Virus record (IMG/VR): IMGVR_UViG_3300000545_000002
Span: 1 to 29,825 of that record
DNA length: 29,825 nt
DNA from: a virus
Direction: 5' to 3' (one strand)
A program made the translations under genes and the position numbers. The notes under the pieces are model-generated. The model did no database searches, was not told where the DNA came from, and worked only from the letters and a program-made list of their open reading frames with translations. The number at the start of each line of letters is the position of its first letter. Within the stretch, counting starts at the first letter, position 1. This document shows positions 11,480 through 25,687 of the stretch, one piece after another.

Positions 11480-12250
11480 ATGACGCAACACGCACGCACC
11501 TACGGCTGGCGCCGCGACCTGCCGTCACCGTTCGTTCCGCAGCACACGCACTTGCCGCTCATGGCTGCGCCGATCCTTCCCGAAGTGGACCTCACGCCGA
11601 AGTGGCCCGAGCCGTACGACCAAGGCTCGCTCGGGAGCTGCACCGGCAACGGGCTGGGCGGCGCTGTGCACTACGTGCTCAAGCAGGCGAATGCGGTGCC
11701 TCTCGCATGGCAGCCGTCGCGGCTGTTCATCTATTACAACGAGCGCGCTCGCGAGGGCTCGATCGGTGTGGACGCAGGCGCAGCCATCAGCGACGGCGTA
11801 AAGGTTATCCAGCACATGGGTGTGCCCGATGAGAAGCTGTGGCCGTACAACATCAGCCGCTTCACGCAGCGCCCGTCACAGTCTGCGTACTCGCAAGCGC
11901 TGAAGCATCGCGCGCTCTCAGTCGGGCGCGTGCGGCAGACCCATACAGACCTGCGCACTGCGCTCTCGCAGGGATACAACATCGTGTTCGGCTTCAGCGT
12001 GTTCGAGTCGTTCGAGACAGACGCCGTTGCCTACACAGGCGTAGTGCCTATGCCTGCGCCGAACGAAGAGCTGCTCGGCGGGCACTGCGCAGTGCTCGTA
12101 GGGCATAGCGACTCGCGCAAGCGCTACATCATGCGTAACTCATGGGGCACGGACTGGGGCCGTGGTGGCTACTGCGAGATGCCCTATGCATACATCGAGA
12201 ACCCCGACCTCGCGTCGGACTTCACAATCGTAAAGGTGGTTGAGCAATGA
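11480..12250 (+). CDS. Papain-family (C1) cysteine peptidase
   Basis: This 256-residue protein has a complete papain catalytic set. Gln48 and Cys54 lie in DQGSLGSCTGNG, His202 in GGHCAVLVGHS, and Asn220 in RNSWGTDWGRGGYC. The fold lacks an obvious signal peptide or long inhibitory propeptide, although about 45 residues precede the active site. It is translated from a strong GAGGAGATACAC leader directly after two fibre-like genes. Possible roles are a virion or fibre-associated protease that digests a host surface protein, or a lysis-stage or anti-host enzyme; the sequence does not choose. The stop overlaps the next start by 4 bp. Confidence 0.88.
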   Translation: MTQHARTYGWRRDLPSPFVPQHTHLPLMAAPILPEVDLTPKWPEPYDQGSLGSCTGNGLGGAVHYVLKQANAVPLAWQPSRLFIYYNERAREGSIGVDAGAAISDGVKVIQHMGVPDEKLWPYNISRFTQRPSQSAYSQALKHRALSVGRVRQTHTDLRTALSQGYNIVFGFSVFESFETDAVAYTGVVPMPAPNEELLGGHCAVLVGHSDSRKRYIMRNSWGTDWGRGGYCEMPYAYIENPDLASDFTIVKVVEQ

Positions 12251-12628: not shown

Positions 12629-13354
12629 GTGAGCGCACCCGTCAAGCACAAGCCCGCGAAGCGCGTCGGGCTCAAGCACAAGTCAGAGCCCAAGCCCAAG
12701 CGCCCCACGCTGCAGCCGCTAGCTGCGAAACCTGCAGCGGGGGCGAGCGCCCCAACGTGGAGCACGACGCGCGTCAAGCTGGGCGACCTTACGCCGTGGC
12801 CGCGTAACCCGCGCCGCATCAACGACGCGCAGTCTGCGCGCCTGCTCGACTCTTTCGACTCGTTCGGCCAGGTGGAGCTGATTGCGCTCGGCCCTAACAA
12901 CGAGGTCTACAACGGGCATCAGCGGCTGAAGGTGCTCGCCGCCAAGCACGGCCCCGACTTCGAGCTCGAAGCGCGCGTGTGCTCGCGCGAGCTGTCAGAG
13001 ACAGAGCGCGAGAAGCTGACCATCTATCTGCACAAGGGGGCTGCCGGTGACTTCGATCTCGAAGTGCTGCTGAAGGAGTTCGACCCTGTGCTGCTCGACG
13101 CATGGGGCATGCCCGACTTGAACATCCCCGACGTCGCTGAAGACGAGTGGAAGGAAATGCCCGAGTTCGACGGCACGCCGCGCTCCTACGCGCACGTCAA
13201 AATCCTGTTCACCGACGCAGAGGGCATCGCGAAGTTCGCGCAGCTGATCGGGCAACCGATCACGAGAGAGACTGCCTCTGTGTGGTTCCCGCAAAAGGAG
13301 CGCACCGACCTCTCTACTGAGCAGTGGGTCGGTGACGAGGAGGTGTCTGCGTGA
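12629..13354 (+). CDS. ParB-fold (ParB/sulfiredoxin-type) DNA-binding or nuclease-like protein
   Basis: This 241-residue protein starts at GTG 12629. The first 45 residues are a basic Lys/Pro/Ala tail. Residues about 47-110 form a ParB N-terminal-type domain with KLGDLTPWPRNPRRIND and EVYNGHQRLKVLA, the paired NPR and NGHQR boxes of phage ParB-like proteins. The C-terminal half is acidic and not recognised. In phages, such single-domain ParB proteins usually neighbour DNA methylases or base-modification enzymes and are not partition proteins. Here the next gene, overlapping by 4 bp, is a glycosyltransferase. A CTP-binding or nuclease activity is a family-based possibility only. Confidence 0.78.
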   Translation: MSAPVKHKPAKRVGLKHKSEPKPKRPTLQPLAAKPAAGASAPTWSTTRVKLGDLTPWPRNPRRINDAQSARLLDSFDSFGQVELIALGPNNEVYNGHQRLKVLAAKHGPDFELEARVCSRELSETEREKLTIYLHKGAAGDFDLEVLLKEFDPVLLDAWGMPDLNIPDVAEDEWKEMPEFDGTPRSYAHVKILFTDAEGIAKFAQLIGQPITRETASVWFPQKERTDLSTEQWVGDEEVSA

Positions 13355-14184
13355 ACCCCCGCTATCCCGTGTATGTGATCTCCAAGGGGCGCGCTGACAC
13401 GCGCCTCACGGTGCTCGAGCTTGAGCGCCTGCGCGTCCCGCACCACGTCGTGATCGAGCCGCAGGAGTACGAGGCCTATCGCTCTGTCATCCCGGCAGAG
13501 CGCTTGCTGCGCCTGCCGTTTAGCAACCTAGGGCAAGGCTCTATCCCGGCACGCAACTGGGTGTGGGAGCACGCCAAGGCGGCAGGCGCAGAGCGGCACT
13601 GGATACTCGACGACAACATTCGAGACTTCAGGCGGCTGCACCAAGGAGATCGGCGCCTCGTCAACGACGGCACGATCTTCAAGGCGGCAGAGGACTTTGT
13701 AGACCGCTACGAGAACGTCGCGATCGCAGGCTTCGAGTACACCATGTTCGCGCAGACGGCGCAGTGCTCGTGGCCTGCAGTGCGCTTCAACACTCGCGTC
13801 TACTCCTGCATTCTCATCAAGAACGACCTGCCGTATCGCTGGCGCGGTCGCTACAACGAGGACACCGACCTCTCGCTGCGCGCGCTCAAAGACGGCTGGT
13901 GCACGGTGCTGTTCGTCGCATTCCTGGCGACAAAAGTCGCAACGATGCGCATGAAGGGCGGCAACACCGAGGAGCTGTACCAGGGCGATGGGCGCCTCGA
14001 CATGGCGCGCTCTCTACAGGCGCAGCACCCCGACGTCACGAAGGTGACGCGCCTGTGGGGGCGCTGGCAGCACAAGGTTGACTACAGGCCTTTCAAGACG
14101 AACAAGCTCAAGCGCAAGGCAGGGCTTGTGCTGCGCGACAAGCCGAATAACTACGGCATGCGCGTCGCGCTCCCCAGCAGCTAG
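13351..14184 (+). CDS. Glycosyltransferase resembling TET-associated DNA glycosyltransferase (TAGT)
   Basis: This 277-residue protein starts at GTG 13351. The N-terminal YVISKGRADTRLT, the acidic metal-binding box WILDDNI (Asp87-Asp88), and NEDTDLSLRALKDGWCT (Glu170-Asp171) form the order expected of GT-A fold enzymes. The overall pattern matches the TAGT family described from phages that hydroxylate and glycosylate 5-methylcytosine. In that setting the enzyme adds sugar to hydroxymethylated cytosine in phage DNA, which protects it from restriction. No oxygenase or cytosine methylase is visible in this window, so the DNA substrate is inferred. A role in glycosylating virion proteins or host surface sugars is an alternative. 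Confidence 0.7.
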   Translation: MNPRYPVYVISKGRADTRLTVLELERLRVPHHVVIEPQEYEAYRSVIPAERLLRLPFSNLGQGSIPARNWVWEHAKAAGAERHWILDDNIRDFRRLHQGDRRLVNDGTIFKAAEDFVDRYENVAIAGFEYTMFAQTAQCSWPAVRFNTRVYSCILIKNDLPYRWRGRYNEDTDLSLRALKDGWCTVLFVAFLATKVATMRMKGGNTEELYQGDGRLDMARSLQAQHPDVTKVTRLWGRWQHKVDYRPFKTNKLKRKAGLVLRDKPNNYGMRVALPSS

Positions 14185-14684
14185 CGGCTGCGCCCGATCT
14201 CGAAGTGCATCGGGTCGCAGCTCGTCCCGTGCCAGTCGCCTCCCCAGACAATGTCTAGGTCGTAGGCGATCGGCACGAGCGGCAGCAGCGTCCCGACGTG
14301 ATCGACAGGTGCCGGGGGGCGGCCCATCGGATTGTGCGACGCGTTCAGGTCGAGCGCAGTGCCGCGCGAGTGCCTGCTGAGGCCTGCCTCGGACACAGGC
14401 ACGTTCAGCCCGCGCTTGAAGCGCGCATTGAAGCCGCCGTCCACGGTGAGGATGCACTTGTCTGCGCCTACGAGGCGCGCGCGCCGCAGCCACTCGGTGA
14501 ACACAGGCGCTGCAGCGCGGTGCACGGTGGCATGCCGGCCAGGGATGACTTCGATCTGCACGAGGCGCTGCAGCTGCCACGCTTTGGCAACGTGCACGAC
14601 GCGCTTGTCGTCGATGGTGAAGTCGAGAGGGAACTGGTGCTGCAGCTCGGCTTGAGACAACTGGTGCGGGAGGTCGGTAGACAT
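14181..14684 (-). CDS. M15-type peptidase, probable endolysin
   Basis: This 167-residue protein has the zinc-peptidase pattern of the M15 family. It shows SRHSRGTALDLN (His105, Asp112), an Asp/Trp-containing region, and DPMHFEIG with His160 near the C-terminus. M15 enzymes of phages cleave L-alanyl-D-glutamate or D-Ala-D-Ala bonds in peptidoglycan. No cell-wall-binding domain and no signal peptide are visible, typical of endolysins from Gram-negative phages, which need a holin for export. It is the last gene of the leftward operon and is read against the late genes. Its TAG stop and the TAG stop of the glycosyltransferase share the palindrome CTAG. The ribosome site is weak. Confidence 0.8.
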   Translation of the reverse strand: MSTDLPHQLSQAELQHQFPLDFTIDDKRVVHVAKAWQLQRLVQIEVIPGRHATVHRAAAPVFTEWLRRARLVGADKCILTVDGGFNARFKRGLNVPVSEAGLSRHSRGTALDLNASHNPMGRPPAPVDHVGTLLPLVPIAYDLDIVWGGDWHGTSCDPMHFEIGRSR

Positions 14685-17755: not shown

Positions 17756-17769
17756 AAGTGCGCGCACTT
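17756..17769. promoter_or_regulatory. Perfect 14-bp palindrome upstream of integrase
   Basis: AAGTGCGCGCACTT is identical to its reverse complement. It lies about 185 bp upstream of the chosen integrase start and abuts a TATCTC half-site. It is a likely protein-binding site, perhaps for a repressor or the integrase itself. Confidence 0.5.
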
Positions 17770-17952
17770 ATCTCTCTCGTGCTACTGCTCCACCATGCAG
17801 CTAGTGCACGTGAGATATGCCTGCTAGGATACGGCCTTTGGACACGAAAACAGCGGGTGAACGCAATAAGCCTCGTGCGACATATCAACGGATATCTACG
17901 ACGTTCAACCCCAAAACATGTGCAAAGCAATGTGCACCCCAGGAGACACAGA

Positions 17953-19497
17953 ATGAGCCCAAAACACGCAAAGCAGCGTTCTCAGCACCCAGGCGTGCTT
18001 GTGATACGCCCGACAGCAGCGCGCCCGTACTACGCGCTGCGCTACACGGACCCCGCCACAGGCACGTCCAGGCAGCCCAGGCTGGACGTAGCCTCCGAGC
18101 ACGAGGCAGAGCAGGCAGCGCTCCAGCTCGTGGAAGGCCTGCGAGCGCAGAGGGCAAGCTCTGCAGCGCCCACCGCAGCTCCAGCCCCGAGAGCGCCTGC
18201 TAGGGTCCGCCCCGAGTCTAAGACAAAGGGCGTCGTCATCATCAAGCCCAGGCCGGGGCGCTCGTTCTACGCGCTGCGCTACACCGACCCGAGCACAGGC
18301 AGAGGCCGCGAGCCCAGACTGCCGGGCGTGACGACGCTGGAGGCCGCCGAAGCTGCAGCGCAGACGCTGTCGCGCACGCTGCTGCGCCGGCAGCTCGAAG
18401 TAACGCTCGCAGGCGGGCGGGAGTTCGCCGGCACGACCTGCAGCATCCGCGAGGAGGTCAGCACGTACCTCGCCGCTGTCGGGCGCAAAGTGTCCCGACG
18501 CGGCAGGCGCACAAGCCCCATCACGCTGCGTCGCTACCGCGACGGGCTCACAGAGTTTGCAGACTGGTGCGAGCGTCGCGGCGTGCTGCAGCTCGGCGGC
18601 CTGTCACGCGGATTGCTCGCCGACTGGCTTGTCTCTCGGCAAGAAAAGCTTGCGCACGGGCACGCGCGCGAGCCGTCCAGCGTCAACCAGGAGGTCAAGC
18701 CTATACGCCAGATGCTGATTGCAGCAGCTGTCGCTGGGCGCTTTGTGCACCTGTCTGGCGACGCTCTGCGCGGCGCACTCGGAAGGCTGGTGCAGCCTGC
18801 GCCCAAACCACGCTGCTACAGGACGGCAGAGATAAAGGCGATCTTCGAAGCCGCGTTCGCTTACGACGACTCGCCAAAGCGCAAGCGCAGCACGCCGCCG
18901 ATGGCGCCCGTCGTCGCAGTAGCGTTGCTCTCAGGCATGCGACGCGGCGAGCTAGCTACGCTGCAGTGCCACGAGGTGGTGTTCGATCATCCATCAGAGT
19001 ACGACGAAGCGAGTACGGGGCTAGACGTGATCCGTCTGCCTGCAGCAAAGACCAAGACGCACGAACCCCGCGACGTCGAGATGGGCACGCACACGAAAGA
19101 GGACGGGCGCGTTGTGCCCAGATACTCCCCGCTGCTTGCGGAGCTGATGCGCGCACTGACATCCGGGCGCAAGCACGGCTACGAGCGCGTGCTGCGCACC
19201 GGCTACCAGGCGATGGGAGACAAGGCCAAGAAGCTCATCAAGCTCGGGGCGCCTGCAGACTTCCAGATGAAAGACCTGCGCTCCACGTGCGCTACATACC
19301 AGTCTCCGCTACCGGGCAACGCCAAGGCTAAGGCAGCTCGCATGGGGCACACGCTGGCGGTTGCTGACATGCACTACTTGGCAATCCCAGGCGGCACGCC
19401 CACTGAGGCGCCAGACCTTGAGACTGTGATGAAGTGCGCGGAGCAAGTGCGCGAAGTCATCCGGCGCGTACTGCAGAGCAAGGTGGTGCGTTCATGA
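17953..19497 (+). CDS. int: Tyrosine recombinase (phage integrase) with duplicated N-terminal arm domain
   Basis: This protein has 514 residues from ATG 17953, chosen because AGGAG lies just upstream; the open frame to 17758 has no such site. The catalytic core shows Arg330 (GMRRGEL), Lys366/368 in the hairpin, KDLRSTCATY with Arg443, MGHT with His466 and HY with the nucleophile Tyr475. The usual His of HxxR is Lys440. Residues 14-66 and 93-146 are two copies of one module (YYALRYTDPATGTSRQPRL, FYALRYTDPSTGRGREPRL), probably DNA-binding arms, joined by an Ala/Pro linker. A SAM-like core-binding domain spans about 160-270. It would insert the phage into the host chromosome. The stop overlaps the next ATG. 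Confidence 0.92.
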   Translation: MSPKHAKQRSQHPGVLVIRPTAARPYYALRYTDPATGTSRQPRLDVASEHEAEQAALQLVEGLRAQRASSAAPTAAPAPRAPARVRPESKTKGVVIIKPRPGRSFYALRYTDPSTGRGREPRLPGVTTLEAAEAAAQTLSRTLLRRQLEVTLAGGREFAGTTCSIREEVSTYLAAVGRKVSRRGRRTSPITLRRYRDGLTEFADWCERRGVLQLGGLSRGLLADWLVSRQEKLAHGHAREPSSVNQEVKPIRQMLIAAAVAGRFVHLSGDALRGALGRLVQPAPKPRCYRTAEIKAIFEAAFAYDDSPKRKRSTPPMAPVVAVALLSGMRRGELATLQCHEVVFDHPSEYDEASTGLDVIRLPAAKTKTHEPRDVEMGTHTKEDGRVVPRYSPLLAELMRALTSGRKHGYERVLRTGYQAMGDKAKKLIKLGAPADFQMKDLRSTCATYQSPLPGNAKAKAARMGHTLAVADMHYLAIPGGTPTEAPDLETVMKCAEQVREVIRRVLQSKVVRS

Positions 19498-19898
19498 AAG
19501 GCAAGCGCAATCTGGACCGGCGCGGCCTCCACCACGGACGACTGCAGCAGGAGCTGCGGGCGTTCACGCACCCGGCGCAATCCTATCCCCACGGTCGCTA
19601 CGCGTACACGGAAGGCGTGCGGTACCTCGCAGAGCGCATAGACGCGTACTGGCTGATCGACGCCATCCTGTCTCTCCAGCTCGAGCCCCGCGTTGCGAAG
19701 CACGCGGCGCAGAACTGGATGCTACGAAGCTCTGGCGGCGACGACTGCTGGTCGCTGCACGCAGCAACAATCGACGATCGTTACTGCGTTTACGCGGAGA
19801 GCATCGAGTGGAAGTGCTTCCCGATGCCAGACACGCTGCTCTGCTTCGCTGACTGCACGCTAATGCTCGCCAGCGAATACAAAGGACCCCGCTCATGA
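19494..19898 (+). CDS. DUF6876-like protein, copy 1
   Basis: This 134-residue protein starts at ATG 19494 inside the integrase stop (ATGA), so it is probably co-translated with it. The block YTEGVRYLAERIDAYWLIDA, followed by a variable middle and a C-terminal CTLMLASEY, fits the family I recall as DUF6876, found in phages and integrative elements. The middle has NWMLRSSGGDDCWSLHAAT and YAESIEWKCFPMPDTLLCFA. Copy 2 follows with the same plan. The biochemical role of the family is not known to me; linkage to integrases suggests an accessory or anti-host function, which is inference. Confidence 0.7.
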   Translation: MKGKRNLDRRGLHHGRLQQELRAFTHPAQSYPHGRYAYTEGVRYLAERIDAYWLIDAILSLQLEPRVAKHAAQNWMLRSSGGDDCWSLHAATIDDRYCVYAESIEWKCFPMPDTLLCFADCTLMLASEYKGPRS

Positions 19899-20287
19899 CC
19901 GACAAGCCCACGGCGACCGAGCTCGAAGCAGAGCTGCAGAACTTCACCGGGTCGCAAACGTTCTACAGGCACGCACTGCTCCGCAGCTGCGTCTACACCG
20001 AAGGCGTGCAGCACCTCGCAGAGCGCGCGCAAGCGCACTGGCTTGTGGACGCCATTGTCTCGCACCAGCTGACGCCGAGCGTTGCTGCAGAGGCGTTCCA
20101 GGTGTGGACGCTGCAGCAGCTGCAGGCAGACATCGTCACGGGAGCTGCAGGCGCCTGGGTGCTCTCCTGCGAGGACGGCAACGGCAAGGCAGTAGCAGCG
20201 CAGGAGATCGGCTGGAGCACGTTCCCGCTGCAGCGCATACAGCTGTGGTTCGTGGACTGCACGCTGCTCCTGCCGTCAGAATACTGA
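19895..20287 (+). CDS. DUF6876-like protein, copy 2
   Basis: This 130-residue protein starts 4 bp inside copy 1. LQNFTGSQTFYRHALLRS, YTEGVQHLAERAQAHWLVDA and the ending LWFVDCTLLLPSEY match copy 1 at equivalent places, and the middle (AGAWVLSCEDGNGKAVAAQE, IGWSTFPLQRIQLW) is closer to the usual family form. The two copies are well diverged, so duplication is old or they were acquired separately. A strong terminator follows 38 bp after the stop, closing the integrase operon. Confidence 0.75.
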   Translation: MTDKPTATELEAELQNFTGSQTFYRHALLRSCVYTEGVQHLAERAQAHWLVDAIVSHQLTPSVAAEAFQVWTLQQLQADIVTGAAGAWVLSCEDGNGKAVAAQEIGWSTFPLQRIQLWFVDCTLLLPSEY

Positions 20288-21536: not shown

Positions 21537-22313
21537 TCACAGCTGCGCGCGCTCCCAAACCGCTGGTCGATTGTTCCACAGCTGCAGGTCTTTTCTCTGC
21601 CGATAGCCTGCGTCGACGAGCGTTGCGTTGAACGCCCTAGACGCAGTCGCCCCATCGACTTGCGCCCCATCGACTGCGTAGCTCGGGAAGTGCCCGATAC
21701 TCGGTGATGTAAACGTGTTCGCAATGACTAACAGACGCGGTCTGCGCGCAAGCACCTCGCGCAAGTGCTCGATCGGCGCAGCCCAGTGCTCAAAGTATTC
21801 AGAGGCAAACACCGCATCGACTGTCTCCACCTCTGCAATGTTGGCGCAGAGGTCGAAGCTGTAGCTCGCCGCCATCGAGAGGCAGAGCTTGCCTTGCTCC
21901 CCGACCAGCACGTTCGTGCCGCACACGCGCGCTGCAGGCGCCATCTGGCTGAGCGCTGCAGTCGAGTAGCCTGTGCCGCACCCCAGGTCGACAATGCTCT
22001 TAGCGCCTGCAAACACACCTGCCTTGTCCAGCTCGCGCAGGTACTTGCGGCTGTAGGTAGCCCAGCAATACCAGACCTCTGCAAGATAGACCGGGCGCTC
22101 GTAGACGCTGTAATCAGGCGCGCCGGCAGCGATGGACGCGTACCACTCTGCCTGCAGCACCCCCAGGGCAGGCTGCACCTGGGGGTGAATGCGTATGGCG
22201 TCGTCAGCGATCAAGCAGATCGCCCTAGCGCGCCGCTCCCCGAGCAGCGGCGTGAGCCTCGTGAAGTACTCGTGCAGTGCTTTACGGGGAGAGGCGGCTA
22301 GGACGTTTCTCAT
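21537..22313 (-). CDS. Class I SAM-dependent methyltransferase
   Basis: This 258-residue protein has motif I of class I methyltransferases at residues 107-116 (SIVDLGCGTGYST), a motif II/III-like stretch (ARVCGTNVLVGEQGKLCLSM) and VDAVFASEYFEHWAAPIEHL in the position of the post-IV helix. No DNA-methylase catalytic box (DPPY, NPPY or PCQ) was seen, so DNA base methylation is not supported; a small molecule, sugar or protein substrate is more likely. It lies in the early operon and overlaps its upstream neighbour by 4 bp. An extra N-terminal helical domain (residues 1-85) may recognise the substrate. Confidence 0.75.
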   Translation of the reverse strand: MRNVLAASPRKALHEYFTRLTPLLGERRARAICLIADDAIRIHPQVQPALGVLQAEWYASIAAGAPDYSVYERPVYLAEVWYCWATYSRKYLRELDKAGVFAGAKSIVDLGCGTGYSTAALSQMAPAARVCGTNVLVGEQGKLCLSMAASYSFDLCANIAEVETVDAVFASEYFEHWAAPIEHLREVLARRPRLLVIANTFTSPSIGHFPSYAVDGAQVDGATASRAFNATLVDAGYRQRKDLQLWNNRPAVWERAQL

Positions 22314-23028: not shown

Positions 23029-23318
23029 GGCGCCACCGCCGCAGCTGCGCGCCGATGCTCTTTCGCGCACCACTCGCAGTCGCAGCCGACCTCGCCCATG
23101 CACGCAGAGCACGGGCAACCGGGCAGCGGCTCGGGCGTCTCGAAGCACAGGTCGATGTTCTCGATGCGCGCAGGGTACGCAGGCAGGGCTACGCGAAAGC
23201 GCAGCGTCTGCGTCTCGGGGCCGTCGAGCACGTCGTACGAGCGCAGCTCTGCACCGTACGCCTCAAGCACTGTGCGCAGCTCTGCTACGCACTGCTCGCC
23301 CATGAGCGGGGTCGTCAT
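23025..23318 (-). CDS. Small protein with paired CxCxxC motifs
   Basis: This 97-residue protein has a globular first half and then CPCSACMGEVGCDCEWC near residues 68-84. That is two CxCxxC units seven residues apart, a compact metal-binding site for zinc or an iron-sulphur cluster. It overlaps the RecD2-like gene upstream and the next gene downstream by 4 bp, so it may assist the recombination proteins. No family was recognised. Confidence 0.65.
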   Translation of the reverse strand: MTTPLMGEQCVAELRTVLEAYGAELRSYDVLDGPETQTLRFRVALPAYPARIENIDLCFETPEPLPGCPCSACMGEVGCDCEWCAKEHRRAAAAVAP

Positions 23319-25687
23319 AGCGCCAACCCCGCGCTGAGGCGCGCCGGCAGGTCTGTGTTGCGAGGCAGCTCGTTTGCATTGCCCACAGCGCGCTGCAGCC
23401 CGTCGCGGTTGCCCACGAGCACTACGCCCTCACTTGCGCGCGTAAGCGCTGTGTAGAGCAGCCTGCGCGTCAGCATGCGTGTGTGCGTTGAGTGGCAGAC
23501 CACGATGACCCACGGGTACTGCGACCCTTGCGACTTGTGGATCGTCATCGCGTACCCGAGCTGCAGCTCCTCACGCGCTTGCTTGAACGTGTACTGGATG
23601 AGCGGCGTTGCTGGGATCGGGCTCCCGCTCTCGCGCGCTTTCATGATGGCGCGCGCAGTCGTCTCGTCCGCGTCGAGGCGCACCCACGTGATCGGCGTCT
23701 GCCGGCCGCGCTTGTCTACTTCCATTTCCATGTGCTCGATCACGCCCGTGTCGCCGTTGCGTACCTCGCGCTTGTAGTCGTTCTTGGTGATGAGCACGCG
23801 CGCCCCCACTCGGAGCTCCGTCCCGTCCTCGAGCGCAATGCGCGCCAGGTCCTGATCGCTCACGCCGCCAGTGCGCGGGTTGAAGTGCTCTGACAACAGA
23901 CGGTTGATGACCGCTACGCCTGCAAGGCCTTTGTTCTGCGGCACGAGCACAGGCGCAGGCATCCCAGACGCGAAGCCACGCTTAGGCTTGTAGCCCGCGG
24001 CAAGCTTCGCAGCGCTGAAGCCTACGTCGTCGTTGTGCTTGCCGCGCAGGATGTTCTCTATCACTGCAGGCACGCAGTCGGCGCGCACCTCGTTGACGTA
24101 GCGGAAGTCTGGCCGCGGCGTCAGGTCAGGCATCTTGCCAGCAAGCACCAGCGGCGCAGACTCTGCGACCCACGAGCCTTCGCCCTGCCGGTACACAGGG
24201 CCGAGTCGCACTACTGTGCTCGGTCTGCCTGCGTCTGCATCGCTCAGCGCGCGCAGATGGTCTGCAAACGGCTGGCCTGCGCCCACAGGCGGGAGCTGAT
24301 CGGCGTCGCCTACAAAGCGCACTGCAGCCTTATTGCCGCCGCGCTCGACCGCGCCCATCAACGCAGCCCACAGCTGCAGGTCCACCATAGAGGCCTCGTC
24401 CACGATGATCACGCAGCGCTGCGTTATGTCTACGCGCTTGTATGCGCCTCCGCTCAGCTTGCAAGTGTCGCAGTCAACGACGTACTCAGGCCGATACTCC
24501 AGCAGGCGATGCAGCGTCATCGCCTCGCGGTCTGTGGCCTCTGCCATGCGGCGCGCTGCCTTGCCTGTAGGCGCAGCCAGGATGACCTGCAGGCCTTGCG
24601 CTTCGATCTCCGCGACTGCGTACTGCAAGATGGTCGTCTTGCCTGTGCCGGGGCCTCCCGTGATGAGGCCGATCGGTCGGGCCGGGTTCGCCATCAGCTC
24701 GATCGCGTCGAGCTGGAAGGGGTGCAGCTCGCGCTTTGGTTTCTCAGCCAATGCGCGAGCTGCAGCAGACGCAGCGAACATGCCGCCGGAGCGCTCAACG
24801 TCCTCACTAAGCAGGTCGCATGTGCAACGCGCTGCAGTCGCCTCTGCGCGCTCGAACGCAGGCAGATAGATGCGTGCGCCGTCAGGTGTGACGACGCGCT
24901 TCGCAGCAATCAGCTCCTGCAGCACTGCTGTCGTCTCGTCGATCGAGACACCCAGAAACGAGTTCGACATCCACACGAACATCGCATACGTGCTGAACGC
25001 GTGGCCCTGCTGCGCCATCTCTGCCATCTGGTACAGGATGCCCGCGCGCACACGTTGCTTAGAGTGCTTGGCAATGCCGCACTTCATCGCGACCTCATCG
25101 GCGCGCTGAAAGCCGAACCCGCTGATGTGCTCTGCGAGCAAGTACGGGTCGGCGTAGAGACGGTCGCAGGCCTCGGCCAGCGGCCAGTGCTTGATGATGC
25201 GTGCAATCTGCGCCTGCGTGAGCTTCCAGCCCCGCAGCGTGGCGTAGTGCTCGCGCGCAGTGCCCTCTAGCACGTAGGCTTCGCGCACGACCTCTGCGAG
25301 CTGCTCGCCTAGCACCTCTGCTAGCTCCTCGTGCCCGCGCTCTAGAGAGGCCCACAGCTTCGCAGGGTCGTTGTCGAAGCGTCGCATGATGGCTGCAGCC
25401 TTGATCTTGCCGATGCCGTCGCAGCGATCTGCAAGCCACAGCTCCACGCCCTCAGCTGACAGCGGCGGTTGCGACGACAAGACAGAGCGCGCGTGAAACT
25501 GCTCGCCCCACTTTGAATCCTCCCAATCCCCGAGCAGCTCGGCGCAGCAACCGGGCCGCGGCAGATGGCAGCCTGTCACCTTGTGTTCCTTCCCGTTCGG
25601 CGTGCGCACCGTCACTATGTGCCAGCCAGTCGATTCGCGTGGCTCGTCGCGCCACGACACTACTTCGCAGACCAGTGAGTCGCTCAT
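23315..25687 (-). CDS. RecD2-like superfamily 1 DNA helicase
   Basis: This 790-residue protein has an N-terminal OB-like part, then helix-hairpin-helix-like segments (GVELWLADRCDGIGKIKAAA; LAEHISGFGFQRADEVAMKC), as in RecD2. The motor starts with Walker A GGPGTGKT at about residues 344-351, then motif Ia APTGKAARRMAEAT, motif II VDEASMVD, and motif III GDADQLPPVGAGQ. Near the C-terminus AMTIHKSQGSQYP and LLYTALTRASEGVVLVG are motifs V and VI. RecD2 enzymes unwind DNA 5' to 3' and are monomeric. Here it probably works with the Fe-S nuclease of the same operon. GGAAGG lies 7 bases before the ATG. Confidence 0.92.
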   Translation of the reverse strand: MSDSLVCEVVSWRDEPRESTGWHIVTVRTPNGKEHKVTGCHLPRPGCCAELLGDWEDSKWGEQFHARSVLSSQPPLSAEGVELWLADRCDGIGKIKAAAIMRRFDNDPAKLWASLERGHEELAEVLGEQLAEVVREAYVLEGTAREHYATLRGWKLTQAQIARIIKHWPLAEACDRLYADPYLLAEHISGFGFQRADEVAMKCGIAKHSKQRVRAGILYQMAEMAQQGHAFSTYAMFVWMSNSFLGVSIDETTAVLQELIAAKRVVTPDGARIYLPAFERAEATAARCTCDLLSEDVERSGGMFAASAAARALAEKPKRELHPFQLDAIELMANPARPIGLITGGPGTGKTTILQYAVAEIEAQGLQVILAAPTGKAARRMAEATDREAMTLHRLLEYRPEYVVDCDTCKLSGGAYKRVDITQRCVIIVDEASMVDLQLWAALMGAVERGGNKAAVRFVGDADQLPPVGAGQPFADHLRALSDADAGRPSTVVRLGPVYRQGEGSWVAESAPLVLAGKMPDLTPRPDFRYVNEVRADCVPAVIENILRGKHNDDVGFSAAKLAAGYKPKRGFASGMPAPVLVPQNKGLAGVAVINRLLSEHFNPRTGGVSDQDLARIALEDGTELRVGARVLITKNDYKREVRNGDTGVIEHMEMEVDKRGRQTPITWVRLDADETTARAIMKARESGSPIPATPLIQYTFKQAREELQLGYAMTIHKSQGSQYPWVIVVCHSTHTRMLTRRLLYTALTRASEGVVLVGNRDGLQRAVGNANELPRNTDLPARLSAGLAL

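Follow-up and report, generated by a model that had tools for sequence, protein, structure and literature searches.

The TAGT name, and the link of these glycosyltransferases to TET, are said to go back to Iyer et al. 2013. The DNA gentiobiosyltransferase of phage T6 is a member of the TAGT family and transfers a second glucose onto alpha-glucosyl-hydroxymethylcytosine (PMC13216743, PMC13390438). Solitary TAGT homologues were reported in 288 of 753 phage genomes, and their function was left open by the authors (PMC13216743). According to a passage of PMC8056088, the glucosyltransferase of Aeromonas phage Aeh1 was predicted by Iyer et al. 2013 to modify DNA, with the base unknown. Neither Aeh1 nor phage 65 appears in a list of phages that have gene 42 or glucosyltransferases, and the same source describes the DNA of T4 relatives without the gene 42/glucosyltransferase network as probably free of major modification (PMC2993671). 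Both Aeh1 and 65 carry a TAGT of the type analysed here. Our search found no literature joining TET, ParB and glycosyltransferase.

We analysed a 29,825-base virus fragment from IMG/VR (the window), in which genes for tail sheath, tape measure and baseplate proteins lie upstream of a TAGT gene (13351-14184, + strand). This ORF encodes 277 aa, starts with GTG and overlaps the preceding 241-aa ORF (12629-13354, + strand) by 4 bp (GTGA). A preliminary description of this DNA had called the product a TAGT-like GT-A glycosyltransferase with Asp87-Asp88 and Glu170-Asp171, and each of these assignments was borne out. PF20691 (TAGT) was the sole Pfam family matched, with E 6e-50 and 170.4 bits (curated cut-off 27.5 bits) over the entire model (positions 1-205 of 205), in agreement with the top PHROG, 842 (beta-glucosyl-HMC-alpha-glucosyltransferase, E 1e-45). 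No capsule or LPS glycosyltransferase family, the competing identity named in that description, scored in Pfam or NCBIfam. The fold of the window protein was judged via a natural fusion homologue, the TAGT part of which is 61% identical to the window TAGT; its model (mean pLDDT 88.8) matched GT-A enzymes. Residues D87 and D88 (DDN, 13609-13614, + strand; predicted nucleotide-sugar/metal motif) and E170 and D171 (in RGRYNEDTD, 13858-13863, + strand; predicted catalytic-base motif) were invariant in a six-way alignment of the window TAGT, three relatives, the TET-linked TAGT of Nonlabens phage P12024L and the T6 enzyme. The nearest relative shares 86% amino-acid identity with a dN/dS of 0.14, and the ORF is, as judged from this comparison, under purifying selection. 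We found no defence-system match for the window TAGT.

Comparison with the T2/T6 beta-glucosyl-HMC-alpha-glucosyltransferase revealed PF20691, the GT-A fold and the DD and ED motifs as common features (PMC13216743), whereas pairwise BLAST between the T6 and window enzymes was non-significant (E 0.12) and the T6 branch of the tree was very long. A hydroxymethylase gene adjoins the T6-type enzymes examined, and an alpha-GT is encoded by T6 as well; the window branch has neither. P12024L gp27, the TET-linked TAGT, belongs to the same family and retains the motifs, at 24% identity to the window TAGT. It adjoins TET/JBP and a methyltransferase gene. In the tree, a long branch set apart from the rest carried the hydroxymethylase-linked TAGTs, and the two TET-linked enzymes shared a different long branch that fell inside the wider set; with only four and two members of these kinds, respectively, their exact placement was not relied on. 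The solitary TAGTs of Aeromonas phages Aeh1, 65 and Ah1 and of Tenacibaculum phage PTm1 fell into the same branch as the window TAGT. What sets this branch apart from the T2/T6-type TAGTs is a second domain, hereafter the companion, and the placement in the tree, together with the PF20691 match and the model of the fused homologue, assigns the window enzyme to a companion-linked branch of the family.

In the window, the companion is carried by the protein encoded at 12629-13354, which the preliminary description had presented as a ParB-fold neighbour of the TAGT. The gene does encode a real ParB fold, as judged from a structural model and profile comparisons, despite the fact that a Pfam search gave no ParB call. 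Its ParB/Spo0J-like N-terminal domain comprises residues 44-172 (12758-13144, + strand). The core (residues 44-130) was modelled at pLDDT of about 89-97, and Foldseek matched it to ParB-nucleotide structures, the first being ParB-CDP (6sdk, E 7e-6). The family profile matched Spo0J (E 6e-11), and residues 44-176 matched PHROG 498 (E 4e-14). At the position of the CTP motif GERR, the window protein has GHQR. PHROG 498 contains phage ParB-fold proteins with DNA methyltransferase domains, and the ParB-like N-terminal domain is common to them and the window protein; the latter, however, lacks a methyltransferase domain, and its C-terminal ~70 residues, which are not ParB, contain the companion instead.

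The companion is a domain of about 53 residues (residues 173-226, EWKEMPEF...VWFP; 13145-13306, + strand) with the pattern W-x-x-M-P-E-F ... F ... F-A-x-L-I-G-Q ... T-K-S-I-W-x-P. It had no meaningful score in Pfam, PHROGs or NCBIfam, and sequence searches retrieved no relatives of either the TAGT or the companion among solved structures. With the window TAGT as bait, the companion was found beside or inside the TAGT gene in 79 of 81 loci, and with the companion as bait, a TAGT was nearby in 79 of 80, the sole exception being a locus that ends at a contig edge; searches with a bait favour similar loci, and their counts are biased in that direction. Across 226 distinct TAGTs, the companion was fused or no more than ~60 bp away in 182 and within 2 kb in a further 39, giving 221 in total. 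It was absent at five, among these the TET-linked P12024L, where no companion was found near gp27, and one truncated locus. In INPHARED, a TAGT adjoined the companion in all 19 records with the domain. Three arrangements of the companion were seen: a gene of its own, the C-terminal part of a longer, ParB-type protein (companion proteins of at least 150 aa; 61/226), and a fusion to the N-terminus of the TAGT. The last arrangement is that of Aeh1, 65, Ah1 and PTm1, which, unlike the window, have no separate ParB carrier. The statement that TAGTs often lie near ParB-like genes stands in part: the link is real, and a ParB-type carrier accompanies ~27% of the distinct TAGTs. Our main new finding is that the companion is a near-constant partner, almost always present with TAGTs of this branch. 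For the structure-based alignment we used trimmed domains and natural fusions; stand-alone companions were scattered over the TAGT part. Two tandem TAGT genes were observed in Vibrio phage Kuja and IMG/VR contigs (L006, L007, L194, L086, L059 and L060), with a companion domain for each of the two in several cases, an arrangement that suggests sequential sugar additions.

A survey of gene neighbourhoods revealed a methyltransferase next to the TAGT in several relatives, and a gene of the same family is present in the window (21537-22313, - strand), 7.4 kb from the TAGT and on the opposite strand. It encodes a class-I SAM methyltransferase of 258 aa with FASEYFEH and WNNRP motifs, 29-40% identical to the homologues that adjoin TAGTs. 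This virus family co-occurs with TAGTs: in IMG/VR, a TAGT was located within 7 kb in 44 of 49 distinct loci, mostly as an immediate neighbour and in some cases fused to the methyltransferase. Two more loci had a TAGT farther away in the record (46/49), and the remaining three are fragments of 5-10 kb. A contig scan with the family yielded one real relative (L342), which has a TAGT and a companion next to it. We consider the pairing of the TAGT with the companion and with the methyltransferase firm because of the two-way test and the fusions. The methyltransferase is nevertheless an optional partner, because the 44-kb contig of the closest relative (TAGT 86% and ParB 77% identical) contains TAGT and ParB and no detectable copy of it. 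The window methyltransferase had no matches among 50,697 phage records, and its family was not found in INPHARED, which sets the window apart from the solitary-TAGT phages Aeh1, 65, Ah1 and PTm1. Its Pfam matches were generic methyltransferase domains, none of them C5-cytosine methylase, and the defence-system search gave weak type II methyltransferase and mads_2 matches for the window ParB protein and the methyltransferase. Seven of 11 family members weakly matched a PHROG labelled tRNA methyltransferase (best E 5e-5), and the weak matches of the companion included ferredoxin-like or RRM-like folds. These similarities would fit a TAGT, companion and methyltransferase set that glycosylates and methylates RNA or tRNA, a role that we regard as very unlikely: all of the supporting matches are weak, and the PDB matches of the methyltransferase profile are mostly small-molecule enzymes.

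The preliminary description had linked the TAGT to a TET/5-methylcytosine pathway, with a reduced or different modification route as the alternative, and had stated that the TET/JBP oxygenase and cytosine methylase of such a pathway are missing from the window. That absence is correct. The 29,825 bases contain no TET/JBP, C5-cytosine methylase, thymidylate synthase/hydroxymethylase, alpha-GT or beta-GT, with the qualification that a methyltransferase of another type, tied to the TAGT, is present at 21537-22313. The window being a fragment, the lack of a gene there carries little weight by itself, and the missing enzymes could in principle be encoded elsewhere in the genome of this phage, as a classical TET route would have it; in P12024L a TAGT does lie beside TET/JBP. 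The wider search, however, makes such a route extremely improbable. No TET/JBP scored above the cut-off in 97 IMG/VR records of this TAGT branch, among them the 44-kb contig of the closest relative, or in nine named phages with this TAGT type, and the same search detected P12024L, our positive control, whose enzyme is only 24% identical and sits on a long branch. C5-methylases were rare (3 of 34 records searched). On these sequence comparisons, the TET route is not supported for this TAGT branch. The T-even route finds no support either. A search of 72 IMG/VR records, among them the window, gave no PF00303 (thymidylate-synthase-type); most of the IMG/VR records searched for acceptor-making enzymes are fragments, so the absence is statistical and not absolute. 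PF00303 genes were present in larger named phages, where they may be ordinary thymidylate synthases, a distinction from hydroxymethylases that the profile cannot make. An alpha-GT was found only in T6 and a beta-GT only in the control phage COW86c.

The genes around the TAGT bear on the nature of its substrate. In the window, the TAGT closes a run of tail and fibre genes, so that the ParB and TAGT genes follow tail genes and not terminase, and in Vibrio phage 1.076.O the TAGT lies between portal and head-morphogenesis genes. Both positions would suit an enzyme that glycosylates a protein of the phage virion or of packaging; the companion would then recognise the acceptor, and the methyltransferase would finish the glycan. 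Consistent with this, the closest PDB folds of the modelled TAGT include many protein O-glycosyltransferases (GalNAc-T2, Z 14.2; POMGNT1), and we found no DNA acceptor pathway. The acceptor type, however, is not given by similarity of GT-A folds, the characterised relative named in the literature (T6) acts on DNA, and the context of the TAGT varies among relatives, with tail, head, terminase or polymerase genes nearby. We therefore consider modification of a protein unlikely. A terminase gene was near 26 of the 61 distinct TAGTs with a long, ParB-type companion, versus four of the 123 with a short one.

Sugar-nucleotide genes were found near some relatives: in the vicinity of 215 distinct TAGTs we counted UDP-glucose dehydrogenase (19), NAD-epimerase (26) and FkbM methyltransferase (4). 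The first two lie close to short-companion TAGTs (L059, L147 and relatives), often together with DNA polymerase. In some relatives, such neighbours suggest that the transferred sugar may be more than plain glucose. They would also be expected of a host-surface or lysogenic-conversion glycosyltransferase acting on LPS or capsule, and glycosyltransferase clusters of phages have been proposed to act on outer polysaccharides (PMC7824862). Such a role appears decidedly improbable for the window enzyme, whose best family is TAGT and which, as described above, matched no family of that kind. In the neighbour clusters examined, we noticed neither a flippase nor a polymerase nor a membrane anchor, and an LPS or capsule substrate would leave the ParB link and the fixed companion unexplained. 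In a small branch (L233 and relatives), a radical SAM/SPASM protein is encoded directly downstream of the TAGT.

Several other genes of the window were recorded. Within the tail/fibre run, just upstream of the ParB gene, lies a papain-family cysteine protease (11480-12250, + strand; PF00112, E 6e-10). An M15-type peptidase (14181-14684, - strand; PF13539, E 4e-11), probably an endolysin, is convergent with the TAGT and overlaps its end by 4 bp. A 579-aa ORF (17758-19497, + strand), partly 60% identical to the contig of the relative and without a Pfam match, looks by eye like a tyrosine recombinase. Two adjacent ORFs (19434-19898 and 19895-20287, + strand) both match one place in the relative contig and are probably tandem duplicates, and a RecD2-type helicase with an HHH domain (23315-25687, - strand) is 62% identical to that of the relative. 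Between the window and G001 (L378-L380), the tail genes are 33-64% identical, as compared with 86% for the TAGT and 77% for ParB, hinting at strong constraint on these two genes or their recent exchange.

Of the possible substrates, DNA appears to us the likeliest, because the T6 family member acts on DNA, because a DNA-modifying role was predicted for the Aeh1 enzyme (PMC8056088), because the companion is often carried by ParB, a DNA-associated class of fold, and because of the gene order near terminase. Against DNA stand the lack of acceptor-making enzymes (no TET/JBP above the cut-off among 106 records; no PF00303 among 72 IMG/VR records, mostly fragments), the omission of Aeh1 and 65 from the list in PMC2993671, and the position of the window genes after tail genes instead of terminase. 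The TAGT and ParB genes as a DNA hypermodification unit, as the preliminary description had it, are thus plausible and not more than that, because every known way of providing DNA with a hydroxyl acceptor is missing. Taken together, the locus is, on sequence grounds, a solitary TAGT with a fixed companion, often ParB-carried, and an optional methyltransferase. In the explanation that we favour, the ParB-fold/companion protein would bring the glycosyltransferase to its substrate, most likely the phage DNA before or during packaging. The TAGT would then transfer a sugar from a nucleotide-sugar donor, the methyltransferase, where present, would cap the sugar or the modified residue, and the product would protect the phage genome from host nucleases. 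As a whole, this ParB/companion-guided glycosylation with methyltransferase capping is the reading we prefer, with a confidence that falls a little short of even. As far as testable, the acceptor is not a hydroxymethylpyrimidine made by TET or a hydroxymethylase, which leaves an acceptor pathway of a new kind or else an acceptor that is not modified beforehand and is perhaps sequence-limited. More tentatively, and with rather less confidence, one may envisage a widespread undescribed system of TAGT, companion (often ParB-carried) and optional methyltransferase that glycosylates nucleic acid, in some cases with a methylated sugar, and does so by a new acceptor chemistry that needs no hydroxymethyl- or TET-derived handle.

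The TAGT family itself is known; what is new here is the fixed companion domain and the partner methyltransferase. Solitary TAGTs are a recorded puzzle (PMC13216743), to which these two partners give a shape, and which they make accessible to reconstitution on a small scale. If DNA is the substrate, glycosylation in these phages would be independent of hydroxymethylpyrimidines, which bears on restriction evasion and on type IV restriction. If it is not, a family labelled DNA glucosyltransferase by annotation pipelines would be mislabelled across many phages.
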